Shown here: positions 1,512 through 15,333 of the stretch, in pieces
How the letters are laid out: each line of letters starts with the position of its first letter
Numbering within the stretch: the stretch's first letter is position 1
Translations under genes and position numbers: made by a program
Notes under the pieces: model-generated
Databases searched by the model: none
What the model was told of the DNA's origin: nothing
What the model saw: only the letters and a program-made list of their open reading frames with translations
Origin: a virus
IMG/VR virus record: IMGVR_UViG_3300049595_001567
Location: 1 to 20,977 of that record
Length of the DNA: 20,977 bases
Strand: one strand, 5' to 3'

Positions 1512-1713
1512 TGAACATCTTCTTCCATCTCGCGTGAGCTATCTGCAAAGCCTCACGAAAGACTTCCTCCGGGTTTTCCGTCTTAGCCAGTTTCAAAGCA
1601 GCCCAAGACTTCTCCCAGATCGCACCCGAATCCGATTGCGAATCCAACCACTCAGCCATAATCAGGTCAGCCAACCTAGCCGCCCGAATATCCGTCACAT
1701 TGTTCTCAACCAT
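1498..1713 (-). CDS. Hypothetical protein (71 aa) preceding the YqaJ nuclease
   Basis: ATG 1713 is preferred over the GTG four codons earlier because GGAGG sits 5 bases before this ATG and would lie inside the coding sequence otherwise. The 71-residue product is helical, with tryptophans (AEWLDSQ, IWEKSWAALKLAK, HARWKKMF) and a basic C-terminus, but no motif I recognise. Its 3' end overlaps the nuclease gene by 14 bases, so it is probably co-translated with it. It is the first minus-strand gene after the antisense WhiB gene, with only 25 bases between the two start codons. Confidence 0.7.
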   Translation of the reverse strand: MVENNVTDIRAARLADLIMAEWLDSQSDSGAIWEKSWAALKLAKTENPEEVFREALQIAHARWKKMFNVKS

Positions 1714-1725
1714 TGAAACCTCCAC

Positions 1726-1731
1726 TAACCT
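1726..1731 (+). promoter_or_regulatory. Candidate -10 element for a leaderless WhiB-like gene
   Basis: TAACCT fits the actinobacterial TANNNT -10 pattern and ends 7 bases before the ATG at 1739, which would place the transcription start at or next to the A of ATG. No Shine-Dalgarno precedes this ATG, which agrees with a leaderless mRNA. No good -35 is seen (TTCTCA 16 bases upstream at best). Confidence 0.4.
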
Positions 1732-1733
1732 TT

Positions 1734-1739
1734 ACTGTA
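1734..1739 (-). promoter_or_regulatory. Candidate -10 element for the minus-strand nuclease operon
   Basis: On the minus strand this reads TACAGT, a TANNNT match that would start transcription about 12-15 bases upstream of the GGAGG site for the gene starting at 1713. It lies beside the WhiB -10 on the opposite strand. The match is short and no convincing -35 was found, so it is tentative. Confidence 0.25.
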
Positions 1740-1990
1740 TGAGCAACCGGGGACAAAGCTACCGCGACTTCAGTGCAGCCATAGTCAAAATCGGTGGTGT
1801 GCCATGTCAAGACATCCCCGACATTTTCTTCCCCGAAGACTTCCCTGACAAACAGACCAGGGAGTACGCGATCCGAACCGCCAAAGCGTTGTGTAAAGAG
1901 TGCCCGCTGCTGATCCAATGTTTCGCCTACGCTATCGAAGCGCAAGAACCCTACGGAATCTGGGCAGGCACCCTTCCACACGAGCGTTAG
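1739..1990 (+). CDS. WhiB-family iron-sulfur transcription regulator
   Basis: The 83-residue product carries the four cysteines of the Wbl family (Cys23, Cys52, Cys55, Cys61; spacing C-x28-C-x2-C-x5-C) that hold a 4Fe-4S cluster, followed by the GIWAG turn at 73-77 (family form G-[VI]-W-G/A-G). Wbl proteins are restricted to Actinobacteria and their phages and act with sigma factors; phage copies can alter host or phage transcription. ATG 1739 is chosen because the conserved region begins after it and a -10-like TAACCT lies just upstream; an in-frame ATG at 1700 would add 13 unsupported residues. The gene runs opposite to its neighbours, and its stop overlaps the stop of the 56-residue minus-strand ORF by 3 bases. 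The C-terminus is short, without the basic tail of many host Wbl proteins. Confidence 0.9.
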   Translation: MSNRGQSYRDFSAAIVKIGGVPCQDIPDIFFPEDFPDKQTREYAIRTAKALCKECPLLIQCFAYAIEAQEPYGIWAGTLPHER

Positions 1991-4108: not shown

Positions 4109-4459
4109 CTAAGCCTCAACAGGTTCCCAGGTGAAAGTTTCCTCATTCAAAACCCAGTCAGCAAACTTATCCGTAGGCGAAGGCTTAGGTGCGATGAAAG
4201 CATCAAGCGCCTCGTCATAGGTGTAACCGATACCAGCATAATTACCTCGAAGCGCTTTGGACTGGTCAGCAGAAGGCTCCCGATTACCGTCAGCGGCTGT
4301 GGTGTAGTGGACACCGCCCATAGTGTTGTAGGAGGTCTTCAGCCAAGTGCCACCCAGGTTTTGTTCCAGGAAGGCATAGCCCTCATCCGGCTCATCATTA
4401 TTGCCTACAGTGACCCGAAGGACAACACCGTTATCATCAATCTCAGCCCATGAACTCAT
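4109..4459 (-). CDS. Tail-fibre-associated protein (SWAEID family)
   Basis: The 116-residue product begins MSSWAEIDDNGVVLRVTVGN and contains NLGGTWLKTSYNTMGGVHY, LRGNYAGIGYTYDEALDAFI and a C-terminal SWVLNEET-like end (DWVLNEETFTWEP). From memory, this combination is found in small proteins next to tail-fibre genes in cyanophages and other aquatic phages; no exact function is known. ATG 4459 overlaps the stop of the glycine-rich fibre gene (ATGA), so the two are translated together, which suggests a fibre-tip, chaperone or host-attachment role. Confidence 0.65.
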   Translation of the reverse strand: MSSWAEIDDNGVVLRVTVGNNDEPDEGYAFLEQNLGGTWLKTSYNTMGGVHYTTAADGNREPSADQSKALRGNYAGIGYTYDEALDAFIAPKPSPTDKFADWVLNEETFTWEPVEA

Positions 4460-5499
4460 AGTGGATACCTCACAATCACAATTCCGGAACCTCCAGCGCG
4501 AGTGTCCGCCTCACTTGCCGCGCCACCAGCCCCAACGGTAACAGCATGATCCCCAACCGCAATAGTGGCAAAACCATACAAGAGGCCACCGGCACCTCCA
4601 CCACCACCGGCAACAGAAGAGTCAGCCGTACCCTGACCACCACCACCACCCCCACCGGTGTTAGTCGTGCCAGCTACGGCCGTAAATCCGCTACCGCCGC
4701 CTCGACCTCCGCCGCCTATTCCACCGAAACCTGGCTCTTTAGCTGTGCTCCCACGAATACCACCGCCACCACCACCAGCGTAATAAGTCATTGTGCCAGA
4801 AATATCGAACTGTCTGCCAGCGCCACCATCACCTGCCCGTTGGGGCGTAGCCGCAGCGCGAGGAGTGCCGCCACTTAGACCGATAGCAGCAGCACCACCA
4901 CCACCACCACCGGATCGGTCAGTTATAAGGGAGCCTGCAGAGCGCCCACCGTCGTTACCCTGCCCAGCAGTTCCAGTACCACCCGAGCCCGTATCTGAGC
5001 CACCACCACCACCAGAACCGCCGGTGTTTCCGGCAACATTCAAATAATCTCCACCAGCCCCACCGCCCGTAGCCGTTCCCACAGTAGCCAAAATTGAATT
5101 AGTGCCATCAGTTCCCTTTAGGTTGCCGGAGCCACCACCACCGCCAGCAACAATCAAATACTCAATCTCGCCACCAGCAGTCACCGACACAGTTCCATTG
5201 CTAGTGAAAGTGTGAACCCCATACTCCACACCCTGAACAGTTACTGTCCCGAAAGTTCCACCCGTAGCCACAACAGAACCAGGGCTTGTAGAAAACTCCT
5301 GCCACTGCGAACCGGAATAGTAGGTGAGCTGGTCGGAGTCTTTTAAAAAAGCAAACTGGCCCTCAACCGCAGTCCCAATCGCTGAACCACGCGCAGCAGT
5401 CCCAGCAAACACCAGAACACCCTGCATCAGATAATCGTTGATGTCATCCTCGTCAAGAACCTCACCAGCGACAAACTCTTTGTAACCGCCTGCAGCCAT
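4456..5499 (-). CDS. Glycine-rich tail fibre / receptor-binding protein
   Basis: The 347-residue protein has an N-terminal module (residues 1-70) shared with the next upstream gene (ending EGQFAFLKDSDQLTYYSG), a short beta linker (GTVTVQGVEYGVHTFTSNGT), then YLIVAGGGGG and about 200 residues rich in GGGG-type runs, ending SGIVIVRYPL. The glycine-rich domain with an IVIVRY end is characteristic of phage tail-fibre tips, where polyglycine helices form a rigid receptor-binding tip. It follows the hub gene and precedes the small fibre-associated protein. ATG 5499 directly follows the upstream stop. Confidence 0.8.
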   Translation of the reverse strand: MAAGGYKEFVAGEVLDEDDINDYLMQGVLVFAGTAARGSAIGTAVEGQFAFLKDSDQLTYYSGSQWQEFSTSPGSVVATGGTFGTVTVQGVEYGVHTFTSNGTVSVTAGGEIEYLIVAGGGGGSGNLKGTDGTNSILATVGTATGGGAGGDYLNVAGNTGGSGGGGGSDTGSGGTGTAGQGNDGGRSAGSLITDRSGGGGGGAAAIGLSGGTPRAAATPQRAGDGGAGRQFDISGTMTYYAGGGGGGIRGSTAKEPGFGGIGGGGRGGGSGFTAVAGTTNTGGGGGGGQGTADSSVAGGGGGAGGLLYGFATIAVGDHAVTVGAGGAASEADTRAGGSGIVIVRYPL

Positions 5500-5717: not shown

Positions 5718-6923
5718 CTAGAAACCAAGAACGCCTGGAGCGCCCTCACCTATTGTACCGAACTCCGGGTCACCGATAACGAACAAGGATGTCTGCAACG
5801 AACCCAGTCCGAACGTCACCTGATGGCTCCCAGGGGACACATCATGCGCGATCTGAATAATCTGCCCGTACCGTTCCACCTTCGCCCCCACCGGAGGATT
5901 ACCCGGTGTGAGTTTCACCTGAGCAACATCACCAATCTCCAACGCAAACACTTCAGCACGTTGCACCGGCGTGATCGCATCAATATCGACCCGCACTGTT
6001 TGGAAACGCAACTGGGGCTCCTGGAACCGCGAGAGCAACAAATCTGCTAAACCCTCGACCGTCACCGAATCATCAATCAGAGTGTCCACCGTCAACTCAA
6101 CAATCCCATAACGGGTTTGTGACAAAGCACCATTAGCTACAGCCGTAGACCCAGGGCTCGTCACTGTAATCGAGTTGTAAAGTTGCTCAGTACCGTAATC
6201 GAGTGTGGCAGGGGCAAACGGAATCCCAATCCCATCATCCGCAAACACTGTCACGTTATCCACTGTTGGTGTGGTGAGCCGGTCAACAAACGCAACGCGC
6301 CCCGACTTATCAATAAACAACAGTCCACCCTCAGACTGCTCCACCTGTTGCAAATACGACAGCACGTTACCGTCAAACACGTCAGCACCCAGCAGAGAGT
6401 TTCCGGCATCTATCGCACGATCCGCTAACGGCCAATCCACTGAAGGTTGCGACAACACTGCCTCAACGCGGGCACCCGTCAACTGTGCCACCGCAGTGCC
6501 CGGAGTCAACTCCTGTTGTGCAAGAAACGTGAAACCATCCGCAGCCTCCAACGAAGCAGACTGCCGACCATTCGGCTCGAAATCAAAATTCCAATCAAGA
6601 ATCTTCCCCACATACTGAACCGCCGTACCATTAGCCAGCACGCGCACATCACGGCGAGGCACAATATCCCCGAAAAAAGGTGAACTCGTATACAAAGGGT
6701 CGAACGCACGATCCTCATTATTCACTGTCACCGACAACGTGCCAGCATTGAACCTGTCAAGGTCACGGTTCTTACCCCGAACGAAAGACACGCCCGTCAC
6801 CCTCGAAGTGATGTCCGTGAATGAAATTCCACCAATCGTGAACTCGGTAGAACCGATAACACCCGCCACCGGGTCATCTAACGTGAACGCTTTAGACAAC
6901 CCCAGCTCAACCGTTACAGACAT
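5718..6923 (-). CDS. Minor tail protein / tail hub
   Basis: The 401-residue protein follows the tape measure with a one-base stop/start overlap (TAATG), the usual place of distal tail or hub proteins. It opens with MSVTVELGLSKAFTLDDPVAGVIG and has an early beta-rich part with RGKNRDLDRFNAGTLSVTVNN and NEDRAFDP, then a hub-like middle (GLLFIDKSGRVAFVDR). This arrangement is familiar from actinobacteriophage minor tail proteins that carry an N-terminal Dit-like part and a gp27-like part. No enzymatic motif was seen. It would connect the tail tube to the fibres encoded next. Confidence 0.75.
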   Translation of the reverse strand: MSVTVELGLSKAFTLDDPVAGVIGSTEFTIGGISFTDITSRVTGVSFVRGKNRDLDRFNAGTLSVTVNNEDRAFDPLYTSSPFFGDIVPRRDVRVLANGTAVQYVGKILDWNFDFEPNGRQSASLEAADGFTFLAQQELTPGTAVAQLTGARVEAVLSQPSVDWPLADRAIDAGNSLLGADVFDGNVLSYLQQVEQSEGGLLFIDKSGRVAFVDRLTTPTVDNVTVFADDGIGIPFAPATLDYGTEQLYNSITVTSPGSTAVANGALSQTRYGIVELTVDTLIDDSVTVEGLADLLLSRFQEPQLRFQTVRVDIDAITPVQRAEVFALEIGDVAQVKLTPGNPPVGAKVERYGQIIQIAHDVSPGSHQVTFGLGSLQTSLFVIGDPEFGTIGEGAPGVLGF

Positions 6924-8665
6924 TACGCGCTCGCAAACACTGGGCCGCTAGACCGTTCGTAACGTTTTATAGCGTTGACAACCACTTCCCCGAGGCGCGC
7001 ATCAGCTACGTTCGCGTTGATCGTAATGTTGTACGTGTTCCCCATCGACCCCATCTTGCTCAACGGGATAACCGCTTCGGGGCCAGCCTCACCAATCAGC
7101 GCACTCGTTGGGCCGGTCACAATGCCACCGGCGGCCAACGGCACCAACTCCGGAACTTCCACCCGCCCAAACTTCACCTCAGCCACCAAAGCAAACTCTG
7201 CCTTGCCAAGCTCGCGCTGTACCGCATTTACGGCTCGGATGATGACATTGAAACCTCGCACAAAAAAGTTGATGAAGTTCTCGAACCCAGTAATCATGCC
7301 GTTGATTACATTGGCGAACACAATCTGCAAGCCGATGAAAATGTTTTTGAATATCGGGCCGAACTCCTCAAAGAAGGTTTGAACATTCTCAAACGCTGCA
7401 ATGAAAAAGCCGACCGCAGCAACAAGAACAACCCCAATAAGTTCTCCAATGAACACAAGAATCGGCGTGAGGAACTCGATAAGGCTGATGACGTGAGGCA
7501 GAATCTTCTCAATCAAAGGCAGGAACGCCTGAACCAAAGTGATGATGACCGGAGCCAACGCAATAATCAGTTGTGCAAGCACCGGAAGCAAAGCTGTGAC
7601 AATCGGCATCAACGCCTCAATAATTTGCATGAACACCGGCAACAGCGCTTCCAACACTTGCAAGAACACATCTGCCAGAATCGGTGCCAGCTCGAGGATG
7701 ACTGGCAACAACTGCTCGAACAGTTGAACAAACACAGGTAATAGTTGTGCCACTATCTCCAAGAAAAGGCCAGCCAACACACCAAGAATCGGAATCAAAG
7801 GCAAAAACGCCTGCAACAACCCTGGAAGCATTTTCACAATTTCAGTAAGCGCAGGGCCAAGCTCAACAAACACTTTGCCAATCTCAACACCCAAAGTTTC
7901 GAGAACTGGCTGCAACCCAGTCACAAGGTCTGCAAAAATCCCAAGCAATGGATCGCCCGCAGTTTCCATCAGGTTTTCCATAGCGTTAGCAAAACGCTCA
8001 GAACCCTTAGCCGCAGCCTCCGCAGCGCCACCAAACTTGCCCTCAACAACACCGAGGATTACTTCTTGTGCGCCAAGCAAATCACCGGACTCAACAAGAC
8101 CTCTAATCATGTCCTGCTGAGATTCGGAAAACTTTACAGTGCCCTTAGCAATACCGCCCAAAGCACTAAGCGGATCCTCCAAAGCTTTACCCAAAGCCAG
8201 CGACATCGCGCCAACATCTTTACCACTAACAGCAGCCAGGTCGAACGCTGCCGAAAGACTCCTATCGAAAACCCCACCGACCTCATTAGCAGATGACGCC
8301 AGATTGCTAAACCCAAGCAACTTTGCCTGAGTGCTCTTGATAATTTCACCATCAATACCAAGTAGAACTTCCTGCGAATCAGCAAACTTAATCATTCGCT
8401 CAGTAGCAATACCAAGATTCGTGCCAACCGGCAAAGTGTTCTTCGCAACCTGAACTAGAACATTATTGACAGCCTGTGCTTCTTCAGCAGCTAACACAGC
8501 GCTCTTGATAAAGCCGCCAATAGCGCCCACAGTGAACGCGCCAGCAATAAGCCCGCCCATCCCCTTCAGCTTCTTGCCGAAGCCATCCATGGCACTACTA
8601 GCCTGATTCAACCCCGTGAGGTCAGCCTTATATGTAATTGGGAGAGTTATGCCTTTAGAAGCCAT
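6923..8665 (-). CDS. Tail tape measure protein
   Basis: The 580-residue protein is the longest here. It has a Gly/Ala-rich N-terminus with a hydrophobic segment (about 35-60), a helical middle, a very hydrophobic section of twelve 11-residue units (about 276-407), further hydrophobic helices to 480, and the C-terminal signature GGIVTGPTSALIGEAGPEAV (about 513-532) followed by NITINANVADARLGEVVVNAIKRYE, a common end of phage tape measures. It sets tail length and helps DNA entry at infection. Using the rule of about 1.5 angstrom per residue gives a tail near 90 nm, an estimate only. No lysozyme or peptidase domain was seen. Start ATG 8665 overlaps the preceding stop by one base. Confidence 0.92.
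   Translation of the reverse strand: MASKGITLPITYKADLTGLNQASSAMDGFGKKLKGMGGLIAGAFTVGAIGGFIKSAVLAAEEAQAVNNVLVQVAKNTLPVGTNLGIATERMIKFADSQEVLLGIDGEIIKSTQAKLLGFSNLASSANEVGGVFDRSLSAAFDLAAVSGKDVGAMSLALGKALEDPLSALGGIAKGTVKFSESQQDMIRGLVESGDLLGAQEVILGVVEGKFGGAAEAAAKGSERFANAMENLMETAGDPLLGIFADLVTGLQPVLETLGVEIGKVFVELGPALTEIVKMLPGLLQAFLPLIPILGVLAGLFLEIVAQLLPVFVQLFEQLLPVILELAPILADVFLQVLEALLPVFMQIIEALMPIVTALLPVLAQLIIALAPVIITLVQAFLPLIEKILPHVISLIEFLTPILVFIGELIGVVLVAAVGFFIAAFENVQTFFEEFGPIFKNIFIGLQIVFANVINGMITGFENFINFFVRGFNVIIRAVNAVQRELGKAEFALVAEVKFGRVEVPELVPLAAGGIVTGPTSALIGEAGPEAVIPLSKMGSMGNTYNITINANVADARLGEVVVNAIKRYERSSGPVFASA
7445..7840 (-). repeat. Coding repeat: twelve 11-residue units in the tape measure
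   Basis: Residues 276-407 of the tape measure divide without gaps into twelve 11-residue units, such as LPVFVQLFEQL, LPVILELAPIL, ADVFLQVLEAL, LPVFMQIIEAL and MPIVTALLPVL. Hydrophobic residues recur at fixed positions, with LP or AP pairs often at the unit border. The DNA itself is diverged, so the repeat is at protein level. Confidence 0.7.
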
Positions 8666-9240
8666 TAGACGGAACCTCCGCGCCCGATGCCCCTAGAGAT
8701 CTGTTCCGCATAAGTTGCCAAACTAGCCTCAACTTTTCTGATAAGCGCAGGCCGTTCCCGCATAAAGTTCGCCCAAACAAAACGGCCACCCTTACCGCCG
8801 GCACTCAACCGGCTCACCTTCGTCAACCGGCTCACCAAATCCTCACCCTGACCATTGATGAAGTACGGCTGAAGGCCACCCTTGCTGTAGTTGCCGTTAT
8901 TGTATTGACCTTTAGTTCCTGCCAAGTCAGCAATCTTCAACGCTGCCTGATTAGGGGAAGTGTAAATCTCAAAGCGAGCAACAGCACCCTTACCGCCACC
9001 GGGAGTGATATGAGTCGAAGCTTTCACGTTGCCCCAACCCGTGCGCCCCTTATGCCCAAACCCTCGAACAGAACCAGGAACACCAAGGCGGGGAACAAGC
9101 GCCGCAATGCGCGCACCCGTAGGCGCGAGATCCGATTTCAAACCCTGAATCAAACGTTTGCGAATGTCAGGGTCAATCGCCTTGACCTGCTTAGCCGCTA
9201 GACGTAACGCAGAAGAATCAATAACGGGATACACAGGCAT
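8665..9240 (-). CDS. HK97 gp10-like / minor structural protein
   Basis: The 191-residue protein is basic, with a helical N-terminus (LRLAAKQVKAIDPDIRKRLIQGLK), a Gly-rich middle and a C-terminal helix (ALIRKVEASLATYAEQISRGI). The general pattern (N-terminal helix, APTGARIAALVP segment, C-terminal helix after WANFMRERP) resembles HK97 gp10-type head-tail proteins. Its place between the chaperone genes and the tape measure is unusual for gp10, which normally precedes the tail tube gene, so it may have another tail role. GAAGGAG lies 8 bases before ATG 9240, a strong independent ribosome site. Confidence 0.55.
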   Translation of the reverse strand: MPVYPVIDSSALRLAAKQVKAIDPDIRKRLIQGLKSDLAPTGARIAALVPRLGVPGSVRGFGHKGRTGWGNVKASTHITPGGGKGAVARFEIYTSPNQAALKIADLAGTKGQYNNGNYSKGGLQPYFINGQGEDLVSRLTKVSRLSAGGKGGRFVWANFMRERPALIRKVEASLATYAEQISRGIGRGGSV

Positions 9241-9264: not shown

Positions 9265-9683
9265 CTACCGCCGGCCCCGCTTACCACTCTGGGCCTGAGA
9301 ACGCGCCACAATGTAACGGCTCATAGTCCAAAGCATCCGAGGTTCCTGCTCCATTAGGACACTGGGAGCAATCCCGGTTTCAACAGCGAGAGCAGCGATC
9401 TCCCAATGAAGGCTCGAATCACCGAGCCCGACTATTTTTTTGCGGAAGCCTCAGAAACCATCGAAACAGACTCAACCCACTTGTCAAACTCGTCAGTGGT
9501 TTGCGCTGTGCGCTTCAGAGCGTGCCACGCCAGGAAGAACATATGCGTCAAGCGCACTTCTTTTTCCAGGCGGGCAACACTCAAATCGAAGCGTGCCTCG
9601 AACGCAATGAGATCTGCAGCAATCGCTGAACACTCAACCGTGGTTTCGTCAATGTAGGTTACTCGTAGGTTTATTGGATTCAT
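9265..9683 (-). CDS. Tail assembly chaperone, long form made by -1 frameshift
   Basis: The long product joins the 83-residue upstream reading frame to a 56-residue extension in the -1 frame, giving 139 residues. After the A7 slippery site the -1 frame continues IVGLGDSSLHWEIAALAVETG and ends GKRGRR before TAG 9265. The extension contains IAPSVLMEQEPRMLWTM, matching the usual second-frame pattern of chaperones (a short helix, xxPxxhh, then PRMLxTM). These gpG/gpGT-type proteins bind the tape measure and recruit tail tube subunits; the short:long ratio is set by the frameshift. The extension has no start codon of its own in a sensible place, so frameshifting is its only likely route. Confidence 0.8.
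9432..9683 (-). CDS. Tail assembly chaperone, short form
   Basis: The 83-residue product of normal reading ends ...VSEASAKK at TAG 9432. It lies directly after the major tail protein gene (2 bases between stop and start) and before the tape measure, the conserved position for the gpG-like chaperone. The helical content (AADLIAFEARFDLSVARLEKE, MFFLAWHALKRT) and aromatic pattern (FLAWHALKRTG-like) agree with the family. It contains the slippery heptamer at its 3' end. Ribosome binding is weak (AGGGG about 17 bases upstream), suggesting coupling to the tail tube gene. Confidence 0.8.
   Translation of the reverse strand: MNPINLRVTYIDETTVECSAIAADLIAFEARFDLSVARLEKEVRLTHMFFLAWHALKRTAQTTDEFDKWVESVSMVSEASAKK
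9435..9441 (-). other. A7 slippery site for -1 ribosomal frameshift
   Basis: On the minus strand the sequence reads GCA AAA AAA TAG in the zero frame. A AAA AAA fits the X-XXY-YYZ slippery rule, with the zero-frame stop right after it. Shifting back one base reads ATA GTC GGG and stays open for 57 codons. Confidence 0.8.
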
Positions 9684-9685
9684 GC

Positions 9686-10099
9686 TTAGACAGTACCCCT
9701 AGTGACAGTACCTGAGCTCAATCCCCACGAGGTGCTGAACGTGGCTAAATCCCCGACACTGGAAGCCAACGGGCTGTACTCAGTGACCAAAAAAACTCCG
9801 GAATAAGACGGGTTGCTCGAAGTAACAGCAGAACCGTTAGGAATTACCGTGACGGTTGCGCCGGTTCCCAGAAGCGGGAAGATGACAGCATCCACGCCAC
9901 CCGAAGCGGCGAAGTCCTGGTGCCAGTCAAGAGTCACAGAAGCATCCTTCAGGCCAGAAATACGCTGAACGAAGGTGTTACCGAAAGCGGTGGTTTCCTG
10001 CTCGGCTGCGGACATCTCAAAAGTGACCGCGGCAATATCGGAACTGAAATCAGTACCGTTGATTGTGATGTTGTAGTTAGTAGCGACAAACTTTGCCAC
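9686..10099 (-). CDS. Major tail (tube) protein
   Basis: The 137-residue protein is beta-rich, beginning MAKFVATNYNITINGTDFS and containing ETTAFGNTFVQRISGLKDAS, the motif EQETTAFG...GLKDASVTLDW that marks tail tube subunits of siphoviruses. The C-terminus (GVFLVTEYSPLASSVGDLATFSTSW) fits the same fold: S-x-x-VGDLATFS is recurrent in these proteins. It polymerises around the tape measure to form the tail tube. The start is GTG 10099 with a strong AAGGAGA 6 bases upstream. The gene follows the tail terminator and precedes the chaperones, the conserved order. Confidence 0.85.
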   Translation of the reverse strand: MAKFVATNYNITINGTDFSSDIAAVTFEMSAAEQETTAFGNTFVQRISGLKDASVTLDWHQDFAASGGVDAVIFPLLGTGATVTVIPNGSAVTSSNPSYSGVFLVTEYSPLASSVGDLATFSTSWGLSSGTVTRGTV

Positions 10100-11149: not shown

Positions 11150-11818
11150 CTACCGCCCGGCCTCCCACCCGTTCAGTCTGCGCCGTTCCACATCCCAAAA
11201 CCCTGCGCTGAAATCCGCTCGTGCCACCTTGTCGTAATACAGGGCCGCGTTCGTGGGAAAAGTGCGAGCGTTCTTCTCAAACAAATCTGAGTCGGAATTT
11301 ATTGTCGAACTGTTGTCATGAATCATCGGCACCTCGATTGACCGGATCGTAACCCCAGCCTGCTCCGCACGAAACGTATAATCGTTGTCCTCACAGAATG
11401 CTGGAAAGAAACGCTCATCAAACAAACCCACACGCCTGACAGCCTCATAGCCGAGCGCAAACGTCTGCCAGTTAGGGAACATCTTAGACAGGGTTATCTC
11501 GTCTGTACGGGCCTCTGAGAGCCTCTGAAGGGCACCAGGCTCGAAACGCACGTCATTCGAGGCAAAAAACCAGCGTTCAGCATACGGAAACGACTTTATC
11601 CCCAAATTCCATGACGCTGCCACCCCCAAGTTAGCTGGCATCGGCAGGTAGGTGGTGTGCTCCACACACGCCGGCACATCAATCGCCATATCCTCGAGCA
11701 CGGAGCTGGCCCCGTTGTCAATGATAAGCAAATGTTCTACCGGGTAGTCAATGCTCGACACCATGCGATCCAGTAGGTCGTAACGGTTTAGCACCGGCAC
11801 AATCAGGTTCTCCAACAC
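11150..11818 (-). CDS. Family 2 glycosyltransferase
   Basis: A GT-A fold transferase. After an initial strand (NLIVPVLNRYDLL) come LLIIDNG (about 30-36) with the nucleotide-binding Asp, the NLGVAASWNLG motif (about 63-73), the SNDV metal-site region (about 87-90) and a late EDNDYTFRAEQAG motif (about 143-155) holding the likely catalytic base. It would move a sugar from a nucleotide-sugar onto an acceptor. The start is taken as GTG 11818 because GAGGTGG lies about 5 bases upstream; the longer reading from 11908 overlaps the methyltransferase gene by 80 bases and adds sequence outside the fold. The product is 222 residues. Donor and acceptor are unknown. Confidence 0.82.
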   Translation of the reverse strand: MLENLIVPVLNRYDLLDRMVSSIDYPVEHLLIIDNGASSVLEDMAIDVPACVEHTTYLPMPANLGVAASWNLGIKSFPYAERWFFASNDVRFEPGALQRLSEARTDEITLSKMFPNWQTFALGYEAVRRVGLFDERFFPAFCEDNDYTFRAEQAGVTIRSIEVPMIHDNSSTINSDSDLFEKNARTFPTNAALYYDKVARADFSAGFWDVERRRLNGWEAGR

Positions 11819-11828
11819 AGAAACCACC

Positions 11829-12368
11829 TCACTGTTTGCGAATACCCAGGAACAATGTTTCTTCCTTGTAATAGCTCCCCGTAGGCATTGTGTATTGCTC
11901 CAACTCAAACCCTGCAGCCGTCACCGCATCCGCAATGACCTTATGAGGCACCGCAATATCAGGAACATCAAGCTCCTCGGTGTAACCAATCTGCTCACCG
12001 TCACCATCGGGAGTGAACACAACGATCGCAATGCGTTCCTGCGCTGAAGCCACCGCGTTGTCAAGCACAAGCTTCCAGTCCCGGTTGTGCTCAATCACCC
12101 CTCGGATCCACAAGCCCGGAGTTTCCGAACGGTACACACGCAGGTCGGCCACAATGTCAGCGTGCTCCGAAGCCGTGCCATCAATGCCAACATAAGGGCC
12201 GTCATGCACTGTTTTGAACCAGCCACGACCACAACCCCAGTCCTCTACAGCTAAACCCTTCAGGAAGTCAGCGCCAATCTTGTAAGTAACCTTGTCCCCG
12301 TATTCTGCGAGCGTGGAGTCGTTGCGATACCAGGCACCCCAACGGTCAAGGTAAGAATCTTTAGTCAT
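11829..12368 (-). CDS. SAM-dependent methyltransferase (second of two)
   Basis: The 179-residue protein has a class I methyltransferase core: EDWGCGRGW (about 42-50) for SAM binding, YVGIDG (about 59-64) as the acidic second strand, and GVIEHNRDWKLVLDNAV (about 90-106), equivalent to the LEH motif of ubiE-like enzymes. The C-terminal half (GFELEQYTMPTGSYYKEETLFLGI) completes the sheet. ATG 12368 overlaps the stop of the first methyltransferase gene (ATGA). Placement between sugar transferases suggests methylation of a sugar or glycan. The substrate is not visible from sequence, and protein or small-molecule methylation remains possible. Confidence 0.75.
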   Translation of the reverse strand: MTKDSYLDRWGAWYRNDSTLAEYGDKVTYKIGADFLKGLAVEDWGCGRGWFKTVHDGPYVGIDGTASEHADIVADLRVYRSETPGLWIRGVIEHNRDWKLVLDNAVASAQERIAIVVFTPDGDGEQIGYTEELDVPDIAVPHKVIADAVTAAGFELEQYTMPTGSYYKEETLFLGIRKQ

Positions 12369-12889
12369 AACGTGTTTTCTTTCGGCTCAAAAACGAATAT
12401 GTGTGACAGCTCCTCTGGCTGGTCTTCCAAGTGTAGAACCTCACACCCGGCAAACAATGACAACACATCATCCACCGTGAAATCGTGCAAATGATACGGA
12501 TTGAAATGCTTGGTTGGTCTTGTCGGGACAGACACGATCACCAACCGTTTCGCCTTCACCAGTTGCGCTGCTAAATGTTGCGGGTTTACTAAATGCTCCA
12601 ACGTTTCAAAACACACAGACACATCCCACCCGAACCCAGGCACCCACTCGTCAAGGTTCACCTCGGCATGAAACTTTCCCAACCCGGCGAACTCCTGCGC
12701 CGGCACAACCTTATCCACGCCCACATACTTCACCGGCACAATGTCGGTCATAACTTTCGCCCCATACCCGACACCGCACGCGACATCCAACACACGCTCA
12801 CCCGGCTCCAACCAACCCGCAGCGAACTCGTAACGGTACACATGGCCCGGCTGGTCAGAAATCTGCTCAGAGGTTATACGCTCAAACAT
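12365..12889 (-). CDS. SAM-dependent methyltransferase (first of two)
   Basis: The 174-residue protein is a clear class I methyltransferase of the Methyltransf_11/25 kind: RVLDVACGVGYG (about 32-43) for SAM, KYVGVD (about 54-59), and FETLEHL (about 94-100). The N-terminus (MFERITSEQISDQPGHVYRYEFAAGWL) resembles methyltransferases of polysaccharide clusters. ATG 12889 overlaps the preceding gene by 8 bases and its stop overlaps the next methyltransferase. No DNA-methylase motif (such as NPPY) is present, so a DNA target is unlikely. O-methylation of a glycan added by the neighbouring transferases is the favoured inference. Confidence 0.82.
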   Translation of the reverse strand: MFERITSEQISDQPGHVYRYEFAAGWLEPGERVLDVACGVGYGAKVMTDIVPVKYVGVDKVVPAQEFAGLGKFHAEVNLDEWVPGFGWDVSVCFETLEHLVNPQHLAAQLVKAKRLVIVSVPTRPTKHFNPYHLHDFTVDDVLSLFAGCEVLHLEDQPEELSHIFVFEPKENTL

Positions 12890-13541
12890 CTTTCGGGTGC
12901 TCCCGCCAAGTCAGGTAAGGGTTATGAAACTCGTGTGCAGGAAACACACCAAAGTTCGGTTCCAACTTCCACACCAAATACGGGAACGACACCTGGTCTT
13001 GAATCGACCAACGCAGATTCTCCTCATGCCAAGCGTGACCGAAGCTTCTAGCCTTGTCACTGTTACGCCACACAATCGCTCCGCAAGCCCACAACCCGAA
13101 ACCCTCCGGCATCCCCTCAGCCCGGTAATGCTCAGTCTGTCCCCTAATAGGCCAATCCTTATATTTCGGCCAGTCCTGACAATAAGCGGCCTCCTTGTAA
13201 AGGTCATCCCTATGCCATAAATCCGGGTGCTCCCACACAACAAAGTCATGATCGGCCAGGCTGTCCTCACAGAAGCCCCTGAAGTCTGGTGACACCACCT
13301 CAAACGCAGCGTCAATCCACACCACGATCTCCGCCTTCACCAAATCAAACGGAAGCATCTTCGGAAGTTTCGCCGCCAACCTCGGATGATGCACACTAGG
13401 CAACACCACCACACGCCAACCGTCAGCCACCAGGTCAGGGTCATCCGTGAAACACACAGCATCATCAAACCCGTGGTCGGCAGGTAACGGTCGCACCGGC
13501 TCAAAATCACCGTACAACGCTGTGACTAAGACGGTTCCCAA
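12882..13541 (-). CDS. TOD1/MUCI70-like (DUF616-type) glycosyltransferase-like protein
   Basis: Around 219 residues. The N-terminus reads VLVTALYGDF, then VCFTDDPDLV (about 29-38), HPRLAAKLPKMLPFDL (about 52-67) and IVVWIDAAFEV (about 72-82). The order FTDD, then HPR-AK-PK, then WIDA is what I know from the TOD1/MUCI70-type glycosyltransferase-like domain, a GT-A-like fold with WIDA near the sugar-nucleotide site. The C-terminal part (EGFGLWACGAIVWRN, IQDQVSFPYLVWKL) fits acceptor-side residues. The start is uncertain: TTG 13541 with GGGGGA 4-5 bases upstream is preferred; TTG 13553 is the alternative. It overlaps the upstream gene by 16 bases. Confidence 0.7.
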   Translation of the reverse strand: MGTVLVTALYGDFEPVRPLPADHGFDDAVCFTDDPDLVADGWRVVVLPSVHHPRLAAKLPKMLPFDLVKAEIVVWIDAAFEVVSPDFRGFCEDSLADHDFVVWEHPDLWHRDDLYKEAAYCQDWPKYKDWPIRGQTEHYRAEGMPEGFGLWACGAIVWRNSDKARSFGHAWHEENLRWSIQDQVSFPYLVWKLEPNFGVFPAHEFHNPYLTWREHPKDV

Positions 13542-14137
13542 AAGTTCCCCCAATACGAATAGCCTTCACGCATAATCTTTACCGAAGGTTTCCCCAAACC
13601 AACCCAGCCCTCAGCCTGAAACCGATTCTCTAAACCCACCGGCTCGAGGGTGCGAACATAATCGGATCGCGCCCACCAAAAATTGCCTGCAAAAAACGAT
13701 TCATGATCAACGTGCTCCGGCTCCCACGACTTCAACCAAAACGGGCCCGCACACTGAAACTTCTCCAACGCATAAACACACTCACGCCACCGTGTCACAA
13801 CATCATGAGTCATCGAAACCCGCCACACCCTAGCCAGCTCACTCTGCGACCAAGCCCCTTTAGTGTGCGCGTACAACACCACCCCATCATCGGTTTGGCA
13901 GAAGTCACGGAGTTTATTCAACGTCACCTGCTCCCAACCCTCAACAGCCTCCACCGTCACATGATGACGTAACGCCCGTTTCACCTTCCGCCGGTTCTCA
14001 CGCGACCCCACCACACCCAAATAAATTCCGTCAAGCTCATCCAGTAAACCTGAAACGCGAAGCTCCTCAAAGTGCTCCGTGGCCGGTGTGAGCCAATCCC
14101 CATCCGCAAACACGTGATAGAAGTGTGACAACCTCAC
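13526..14137 (-). CDS. Probable glycosyltransferase-like protein of uncertain family
   Basis: GTG 14137 overlaps the stop of the upstream GT4 gene (GTGA) and gives a 203-residue protein beginning MRLSHFYHVFADGDW. Its features are LDGIYLGVVGSRENR, EGWEQVTLNKLRDFC, VLYAHTKGAW, WRVSMTHDVVTRWRECV and ESFFAGNFWWARSDYVRTL. The HTKG motif followed later by F-x-G-(N/T)-x-(F/W)-W-x-R recalls rhamnan-synthesis (RgpF-like) and related sugar transferases, where such elements line the active site. That similarity is by eye and distant. Its place between two transferases and the tight overlaps support a sugar-transfer role. Confidence 0.6.
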   Translation of the reverse strand: MRLSHFYHVFADGDWLTPATEHFEELRVSGLLDELDGIYLGVVGSRENRRKVKRALRHHVTVEAVEGWEQVTLNKLRDFCQTDDGVVLYAHTKGAWSQSELARVWRVSMTHDVVTRWRECVYALEKFQCAGPFWLKSWEPEHVDHESFFAGNFWWARSDYVRTLEPVGLENRFQAEGWVGLGKPSVKIMREGYSYWGNFWEPS

Positions 14138-15327
14138 GCAAAATAACCCTTCAGGAACGGCATCCAATAGTCAGACCACACCTTCTCCTCATCGAAGTCG
14201 AGTGCAAACTTTCGTGACACAGCTGAGAAGCCGCGCTCCTTATCCGCCAACACTAGAGCTGACAGCACAGAATCAAGCAGTGGCACTTGGTAGAACGCCT
14301 TCTGTGGTTCATCCCAGAACGGTTGCCCCTCCACCAACCAGCCATCCTCCGCCACCAGGTCGGCTGTGGCAGCCCAACTCGAACCAATCACCCGAGTCCC
14401 ACAAGCCTGAGCCTCAATAGTAGGAACCCCAAACCCTTCCCCATAAGACGGAGCCAACAGAACATCCGCAGCCGAATACAACGCCGCCAACTCTGCCTGC
14501 GAATACCCCACCCGATACTTATCCCGATTAGCGAACGTAATCTTCTCTGGTGGAATCCCACACACCCTAGCCAACAACCCCAAATCAAACCCGCCCACAT
14601 TAGCCGCCGGATCCGCGTGAACATACAAATGAGAATCCGGGTGCGAACGAAGGTGCGCTGAAAACGCCATAAAGTTCACATCGTAAGCCTTCCGATGGAT
14701 AATCCCGTTAGCCTTATTCGCTGCCACCATCGCCACCAAAAACGTGTCATCACTCACACCCAACAGTTCACGGGTCGGCATCATCCCATCCGGCCCCATA
14801 ATCTTCGGAGTCTTAGCAAACACCTTCGTGTTCACAGCGTGAGGAATATAAACGGAATCTATCCCAGCATTATCCAACTGTCGTTTCCCATGCGGGGCCA
14901 TCGCCACCGGGGTCACATTCTCCCGCCGAAGAAACTGGGCAACCCCAGGAGGCAACGTCACATGATCCAACGGCACCCACGAAATAACCGGCAGCTCATC
15001 TTTCCACCCGTTATAAACCCACACATCATAAAGAGTCATGATCGCGTGCTTCAGGTCGGGTGCAGACTGCCGATGAAATTCATGCCACACCGTCAAAACA
15101 TCCTGCGAATAAGGTGCAACACCCTTCGGAAAAACAGGCACAGCACCAAACTCAGTGCGATGCTCCCCAATAGCACCCTCGAGGCCGTAGTTCGACAGCA
15201 CACCAACATTCATGCTGTGACGTTTCATGTAACGCACCAGGAACTCGGCTTGCACCCCGTAGCCCGTTGGAGAGTTTGGATTGTTTGTTGCTAAAGAAAC
15301 AACACCCTTAAGTTTTTCGTAGGCCAT
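14134..15327 (-). CDS. Family 4 (GT-B fold) glycosyltransferase
   Basis: A 397-residue retaining transferase. The C-terminal domain carries the EX7E motif (EGFGVPTIE, about residues 297-305), then AQACGTRVIGS and DGWLVEG; YSAADVLLAPSYGEGFG is typical of GT4 donor-binding halves. The N-terminal half has SPTGYGVQAEFLVRYM, an acceptor-side helix with the Gly-rich start seen in GT4. It is the first gene of the six-gene cassette, after the capsid terminator. ATG 15327 is chosen because TATTAT lies 6 bases upstream and no Shine-Dalgarno is visible; GTG 15333 would add two residues. The GT4 call is secure; the sugar is unknown. Confidence 0.88.
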   Translation of the reverse strand: MAYEKLKGVVSLATNNPNSPTGYGVQAEFLVRYMKRHSMNVGVLSNYGLEGAIGEHRTEFGAVPVFPKGVAPYSQDVLTVWHEFHRQSAPDLKHAIMTLYDVWVYNGWKDELPVISWVPLDHVTLPPGVAQFLRRENVTPVAMAPHGKRQLDNAGIDSVYIPHAVNTKVFAKTPKIMGPDGMMPTRELLGVSDDTFLVAMVAANKANGIIHRKAYDVNFMAFSAHLRSHPDSHLYVHADPAANVGGFDLGLLARVCGIPPEKITFANRDKYRVGYSQAELAALYSAADVLLAPSYGEGFGVPTIEAQACGTRVIGSSWAATADLVAEDGWLVEGQPFWDEPQKAFYQVPLLDSVLSALVLADKERGFSAVSRKFALDFDEEKVWSDYWMPFLKGYFA

Positions 15328-15333
15328 GCCCAC

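Follow-up and report, generated by a model that had tools for sequence, protein, structure and literature searches.

A probable –1 frameshift in a presumed two-frame tail chaperone gene of a putative aquatic actinophage, with a stop codon abutting the slippery heptamer

Between the tube gene and the tape measure gene of a tailed-phage record, two reading frames meet at a run of seven A residues that is followed at once by a stop codon, and the question is whether this arrangement represents two genes, one broken gene or a single gene whose halves are joined by slippage of one base. The window analysed here is the whole of this virus record, 20,977 bases in length. Its structural genes lie on the minus strand, with packaging and portal genes followed by head, connector and tail genes (Table 1). 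The tail genes are arranged in the order tail terminator, tube, two-frame gene, ORF and tape measure, and the identical order was found in the Pontimonas phage phiPsal1 (MG835450), which carries an ORF of similar size where the window has its 191-aa ORF. The usual order of tail genes has no extra ORF between the chaperone and tape measure genes; here, the two overlapping or abutting frames follow the tube gene and are separated from the tape measure gene by one extra ORF.

Table 1. Tail genes and candidate frameshift elements of the window
Feature	Position	Strand	Evidence
Tail terminator	10511-10110	–	phrog_17840
Major tail (tube) protein, immediately 5' of the chaperone gene	9686-10099	–	phrog_4574, E 2.9e-29
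Zero-frame ORF of 83 aa, the putative first half of the chaperone gene (short product, gpG-like)	9432-9683	–	frame-0 pN/pS 0.23; phrog_6889, E 1.1e-6
Slippery heptamer A AAA AAA	9435-9441	–	A7 or CCCAAAA at the same place in 157/161
Zero-frame stop TAG, abutting the heptamer	9432-9434	–	TAA/TAG within 0–4 codons in all 92 distinct heptamer contexts
8-bp stem-loop, 5 nt past the heptamer	9410-9429	–	fold, pairing counts, covariation, independent changes, synonymous shuffles
–1 frame, downstream half, 56 codons (IVGLGDSS...GKRGRR), TAG 9267-9265, fusion product only	9265-9435	–	–1-frame pN/pS 0.23
191-aa ORF between the chaperone and tape measure genes	8665-9240	–	no PHROG, Pfam or NCBIfam match
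Tape measure protein	6923-8665	–	phrog_1535 and others, E down to 1.6e-17

We analysed the two frames and their conservation. The zero frame opens with ATG at 9683 and runs for 83 codons to ...TCC GCA AAA AAA TAG, while the –1 reading continues as AAA AAA ATA GTC GGG CTC GGT GAT... up to its own TAG. A preliminary description of this DNA had claimed a –1 frameshift at the A7 run, with the zero frame ending in GCA AAA AAA TAG, a –1 frame of 57 codons and a joint peptide AKK-IVGLGDSS. The zero-frame end was confirmed at 9441-9432, the codon count agrees if the stop is included, and the peptide follows from the sequence. Using the fused protein as query, a first IMG/VR search gave 75 loci, and both halves were matched by tblastn in 72 of them, with the second half read in frame –1 with respect to the first in all 72; in L054, L055 and L062 the second half alone was matched, and the heptamer is present in all three. 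Next, pN/pS was calculated for 41 distinct A7 relatives over 532 sequence pairs of 70–97 % identity. Upstream of the heptamer, pN/pS was 0.23 in frame 0, while the two alternative frames gave 2.09 and 1.26; downstream of it, pN/pS was 0.23 in frame –1, as against 1.68 and 2.03. This switch of the selected frame at the heptamer is as expected for one protein encoded in two frames, both under protein-level selection and the second made as a –1 fusion only, and supports the frameshift that had been described.

When ten fused proteins were aligned and the alignment was used as the query of a second scan, this detected at least 539 relatives among 600 candidate stretches, and 80 of the stretches were kept (three of these lie on contigs also returned by the first scan and were counted twice). 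The census comprised 164 sequences (L002–L164 and the window), 161 of them with a downstream match; those without one were L079 and L081, which are distant named phages, and L152, whose contig ends there. A canonical heptamer of the form X XXY YYZ, correctly phased with the zero frame, was present at the homologous codons in 157 of the 161 sequences, as AAAAAAA in 55 and as CCCAAAA in 102. The four sequences that lack it are distant named phages: MooKitty, Schiebs, EBPR siphovirus 6 and Adaia (with GGGTTTA at this place). An A7 run in itself is not rare in the window, where two were observed against approximately six expected from shuffles. Traced on a tree of the fused protein (66 distinct sequences), the heptamer changes three times and the stop distance at least four times, and the protein joint I-x-G-L-G-D stays while the heptamer changes. 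Since CCCAAAA replaces A7 at homologous codons, tandem tRNA slippage, rather than a homopolymer as such, fits the site. A T7 run was also observed on the minus strand within the tube gene (9789-9795; GTT TTT TTG, a slippery-like T TTT TTG). Its –1 frame soon stops, a T7 occurs at this place in one of the 69 sequences with enough upstream DNA, and the run is probably meaningless.

The 3' RNA structure of –1 signals lies at about 5–9 nt from the slippery site. In the window RNA, UAGUC forms a 5-nt spacer, which is followed by a predicted stem of 8 bp (9429-9422 with 9417-9410) closed by a 4-nt loop. For the window alone this hairpin is not exceptional, as 8 % of synonymous recodings fold equally well or better, and it is retained as a feature because of the support from relatives. 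In a pairing test on 41 A7 relatives (29 distinct rows, 500 shuffles), 89.2 % of cells were paired, compared with a mean of 85.9 % in the shuffles, none of which rose to the observed value (0/500). The covariation score, which rests on a single base pair, was 0.092 as compared with 0.045 in shuffles (0/500 reached it) and 0.081 in the best slid register, and the numbers of both-side-changed pairs and of pair types were no higher than in shuffles. The covarying pair, C9424-G9415, connects the third position of a Leu codon with that of a Ser or Ala codon: Leu CTC occurs with a codon ending in G 22 times and Leu CTA with Ser TCT 11 times, without a mismatch in the 33 main-clade rows. The pair is absent from eight of the 41 A7 relatives, and the group L048–L051 has a shifted hairpin with a GNRA-like loop instead. 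On a tree built without the pair columns, each side of the pair changes five times, with a compensatory change deduced five times, and of the independent pairs whose branches are supported, four of four agree (p 0.125 by sign test).

Folding of the stretch past the first two –1 codons was then compared with that of synonymous recodings by z-scores. All 30 A7 contexts fell below zero (median z –2.28). Among the CCCAAAA contexts, values below zero were obtained for 21 of 25 with an abutting stop (median –1.35), for 16 of 16 with the stop three codons on (median –1.97) and, weakly, for four of seven with the stop four codons on (median –0.95). No structure was seen in this comparison in the CCCAAAA clade whose stop lies one codon later, with one of its 14 distinct contexts below zero and a median z of +0.53. 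The sequence in this hairpin-less clade is CCCAAAA GCA TAA (for instance in L107, L112 and L124). In an alignment of CCCAAAA genes, A2 (19 rows with the stop three codons on, together with L062, in which it abuts), a longer hairpin was 96.2 % paired, with weak covariation that was reached by 66 of 500 shuffles. A downstream stem, which the preliminary description had proposed looking for, was found in the clade of the window and in some of the CCCAAAA clades.

The explanation that we consider highly probable is a two-frame tail assembly chaperone gene, whose fusion product is made by a –1 ribosomal slip at A AAA AAA with the aid of the hairpin. Most ribosomes would translate the 83 codons and halt at the TAG that abuts the heptamer, releasing the short chaperone. 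A minority would move back by one base at A AAA AAA, where the two Lys-tRNAs would re-pair with AAA AAA and the RNA hairpin 5 nt downstream would assist the slip, and these ribosomes would produce a fusion of 139 residues. By analogy with gpG and gpGT of lambda, the short form may coat the tape measure protein, and the tail of the fusion may bring in tube subunits.

The position of the zero-frame stop was analysed in the same set of relatives. In all 157 heptamer-containing sequences the stop is TAA or TAG and lies no more than four codons from the heptamer: at zero codons in 90, one in 37, three in 20 and four in 10, corresponding to 55, 14, 16 and 7 of the 92 distinct contexts. A universally abutting stop is ruled out by the many CCCAAAA relatives in which it comes later. 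The earlier suggestion of a termination pause, by which an abutting stop could increase slippage, is unsupported as a general rule, given that 67 of the 157 stops lie one, three or four codons on. In 69 of the 92 distinct contexts, the stop overlies the codon for the conserved Ile, which is then ATA with an A or G after it. In the other 23, Ile is encoded by ATC or ATT, and a stop over the conserved Leu-Gly codons (CTA or TTA, then G) is present in 23 of 23, as against 28 of the 69 contexts whose Ile site already holds a stop (Fisher p 7e-8, a value that ignores shared descent). Among the 41 A7 relatives, Ile is ATA in every case, as against 25 of the 299 Ile codons of the window, and the –1 codon after it always starts with A or G, its residue varying among A, E, K, R, T and V. 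This stop placement, together with the constraint on ATA and on the following A or G, points to selection on a stop very near the slip site, not on abutment itself. The nearby stop is best read as fixing the end of the short product. TGA does not occur as the zero-frame stop, because it would turn the conserved Ile into Met or change the Gly after Leu; RF1-specific control, considered as a reason for its lack, was rejected on the same grounds.

The stop could itself be a working part of the signal, in that a release factor waiting in the A-site sets how many ribosomes slip and the ratio of short form to fusion follows release factor supply. This would refine the ribosomal slip reading and is compatible with it, and we regard it as doubtful. 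The stop abuts in all 42 distinct A7 genes on the tree of 66, including L054 from the other subfamily, and the next –1 codon, free to vary over six residues, keeps its A or G, as would be expected of a functional stop; the same pattern would arise, however, if selection merely prevented extension of the short product. The CCCAAAA lineages with later stops indicate that the stop is not needed for the shift, and the missing TGA is accounted for by the –1-frame residues. Published tests of stops beside a slip site point both ways. In a bacterial test, a stop after the HIV slippery site lowered –1 shifting, and extra matching release factor abolished the frameshift, which demonstrates the competition with release factor that such a role would involve; in human cells, a stop at that place reduced apparent frameshifting by ~70 % (PMC4373837). 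In plant viruses, stops 0 or 3 nt past the slippery site recur, with one tested case stimulating, and in pea enation mosaic virus the stop 3 nt downstream stimulates, its replacement by a sense codon having reduced shifting by 72 % (PMC4737148). A more far-reaching proposal is that throughout this phage family the stop, which abuts the slip site or occupies one of two fixed places (on the Ile or on the Leu-Gly codons of the –1 frame), has a conserved function within a bacterial –1 signal, that the A-site release factor tunes the ratio of short form to fusion, and that in the hairpin-less clade the stop 3 nt on stands in for the hairpin, given that a stop so placed stimulates in pea enation mosaic virus; we consider this unlikely.

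The fusion could also be read in frame from an edited mRNA, if RNA polymerase slipped on A7 and added one A. This reading appears very improbable to us. A single added A would yield the identical fusion, and some relatives have A8 (GAAAAAAAATAA, e.g. L007). Runs of more than seven A residues are listed in transcriptional realignment (PMC3711429), reportedly by Antonov et al. However, 102 of the 157 relatives with a heptamer use CCCAAAA, which is not a single-base run and holds only four A residues in a row, so that ribosomal slippage is likelier than polymerase slippage. The hairpin, being base-paired and constrained at the level of RNA, suits a stimulator of ribosomal slippage, and polymerase slippage on an A run fails to explain how A7 arose or was replaced while the protein joint stayed. 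Nor is the second frame at all likely to be a separate small gene with its own start or with translational coupling at the first-frame stop, which it does overlap: the first ATG of the –1 frame lies inside ...SVLMEQ, 3' of the conserved IxGLGDSSxHW block, so that, as the preliminary description had stated, the frame has no useful start of its own, and frame –1 is conserved both in this block and in the codons that lead to the heptamer. The relatives refute a broken gene, as well as an indel from sequencing or assembly, as the 72 loci that share the frame change come from different metagenomes, the change also occurs in a named phage genome and most of the family has a heptamer that is not one of the error-prone homopolymers in which such errors are common.

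Assignment of the product to the tail chaperones, made in the preliminary description, was supported solely by gene position and by weak similarity; searches of Pfam and NCBIfam gave no match above cut-off. The upstream half matches a PHROG family of unassigned function, phrog_6889, as do 21 of 25 first halves. By tblastn, Arthrobacter genes annotated as tail assembly chaperones were matched weakly (E 0.09 to 2). A Foldseek search against viral models (BFVD) yielded 15 matches at ≤1e-3, none functionally named, and rows named tail assembly chaperone at a weak E of 0.14–0.67. Sub-cutoff matches alone were obtained with Pfam (GDH_HM3, E 0.15) and NCBIfam (E 0.014), the best E in a PDB sequence search was 1.6, and a PDB fold search with the predicted upstream half (pLDDT 88.7) gave weak rows and no convincing chaperone match. 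Homology to the lambda proteins was not found by the PHROG, Pfam and NCBIfam searches. The place and size of the gene, its two-frame form and its short second half match the tail assembly chaperones of the lambda G/GT kind, and by this analogy a chaperone role is suggested.

A WhiB-family regulator is encoded at 1700-1987 (+), on the strand opposite to the structural genes (PF02467, E 7.5e-14). Taken with the close relative in Pontimonas salivibrio, this domain suggests that the host is an actinobacterium. For prophage relatives, one scan of genome contigs yielded a single locus, in a pond MAG. Two further regions of the minus strand were noted. Between the major capsid and connector genes lies a cassette of glycosyltransferase-like and methyltransferase genes (11150-15333), with a similar cassette at the equivalent place in phiPsal1; as a guess, its products decorate either the capsid or the surface of the host. 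A glycine-rich protein of 347 aa without a Pfam match, encoded downstream of the tail genes (4456-5499), is perhaps a fibre or receptor-binding part.

Chaperone frameshifts of the lambda G/GT type are already known, and this locus adds a member with an unusually tight and well-conserved signal. What is unusual is the tight and partly interchangeable placing of the stop, and the variation of heptamer and hairpin around a fixed protein joint. In the literature searched, which consisted mostly of papers free of subscription, we found no paper on an abutting stop, or on CCCAAAA, in phage chaperone frameshifts. Two forms of a protein that assists tail assembly are probably made by this phage of aquatic actinobacteria, and a large family of aquatic actinophages, with at least 539 related stretches in one viral collection, would join those with frameshifted tail chaperones. 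The family is a natural experiment, in which the protein joint is constant and the heptamer, the stop distance and the hairpin change. It could show which effect, if any, a stop next to a bacterial –1 slip site has on the shift, helpful or adverse, a point on which published results disagree.

Finally, we compared the locus with known systems. Signals of plant viruses (BYDV, RCNMV, groundnut rosette and pea enation mosaic) resemble the present one in having a heptamer, a stop 0 or 3 nt later, a 5-nt spacer and a hairpin beside the stop, but they operate on eukaryotic ribosomes in RNA virus polymerase genes, with long bulged hairpins and long-range pairing, and no homology is claimed (PMC4737148). 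The BYDV/RCNMV type of arrangement, with a stop directly after the heptamer and a hairpin beside it, is seen in the window, and the stop abuts in 55 of the 92 distinct contexts. The two-part chaperones of the Arthrobacter phages Adaia and MooKitty share the gene order and, within their second halves, an IAPSVL/IPPSVL motif; the match is weak (E 0.09 and 2), MooKitty has no heptamer at the homologous place and Adaia has GGGTTTA.

The one named close relative is phiPsal1, of which the authors state that the phage is not discussed further (PMC6106888). Its gene 16 is 58 % identical in the first half and reads TCA AAA AAA TAA; the –1 frame and the gene order also agree, including the glycosyltransferase and methyltransferase genes between the capsid and connector genes, whereas the predicted hairpin is different and lies further downstream. 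The first half is annotated there as hypothetical and the second half carries no feature, in line with the expectation that annotation would miss the second frame. Frameshifts of the lambda chaperone type were reportedly described in other dsDNA tailed phages by Xu, Hendrix and Duda in 2004. The lambda heptamer is GGGAAAG; the present heptamer differs from it, being A7 or CCCAAAA, and the present locus differs further in the 191-aa ORF before the tape measure gene. Compared with the SEA-PHAGES training set and the set of Xu et al., in which the mean distances from heptamer to stop are 26 and 36 nt, respectively, as given in PMC10885494, the stop is much closer here, at 0–4 codons. The –1 frameshift of the lambda tail assembly chaperone gpG/gpGT, with its relatives in dsDNA tailed phages (PMC5009743), is nevertheless like the present one in its main features, namely a two-frame gene after the tube gene, a heptamer near the end of frame 0, a –1 fusion and a short second half.
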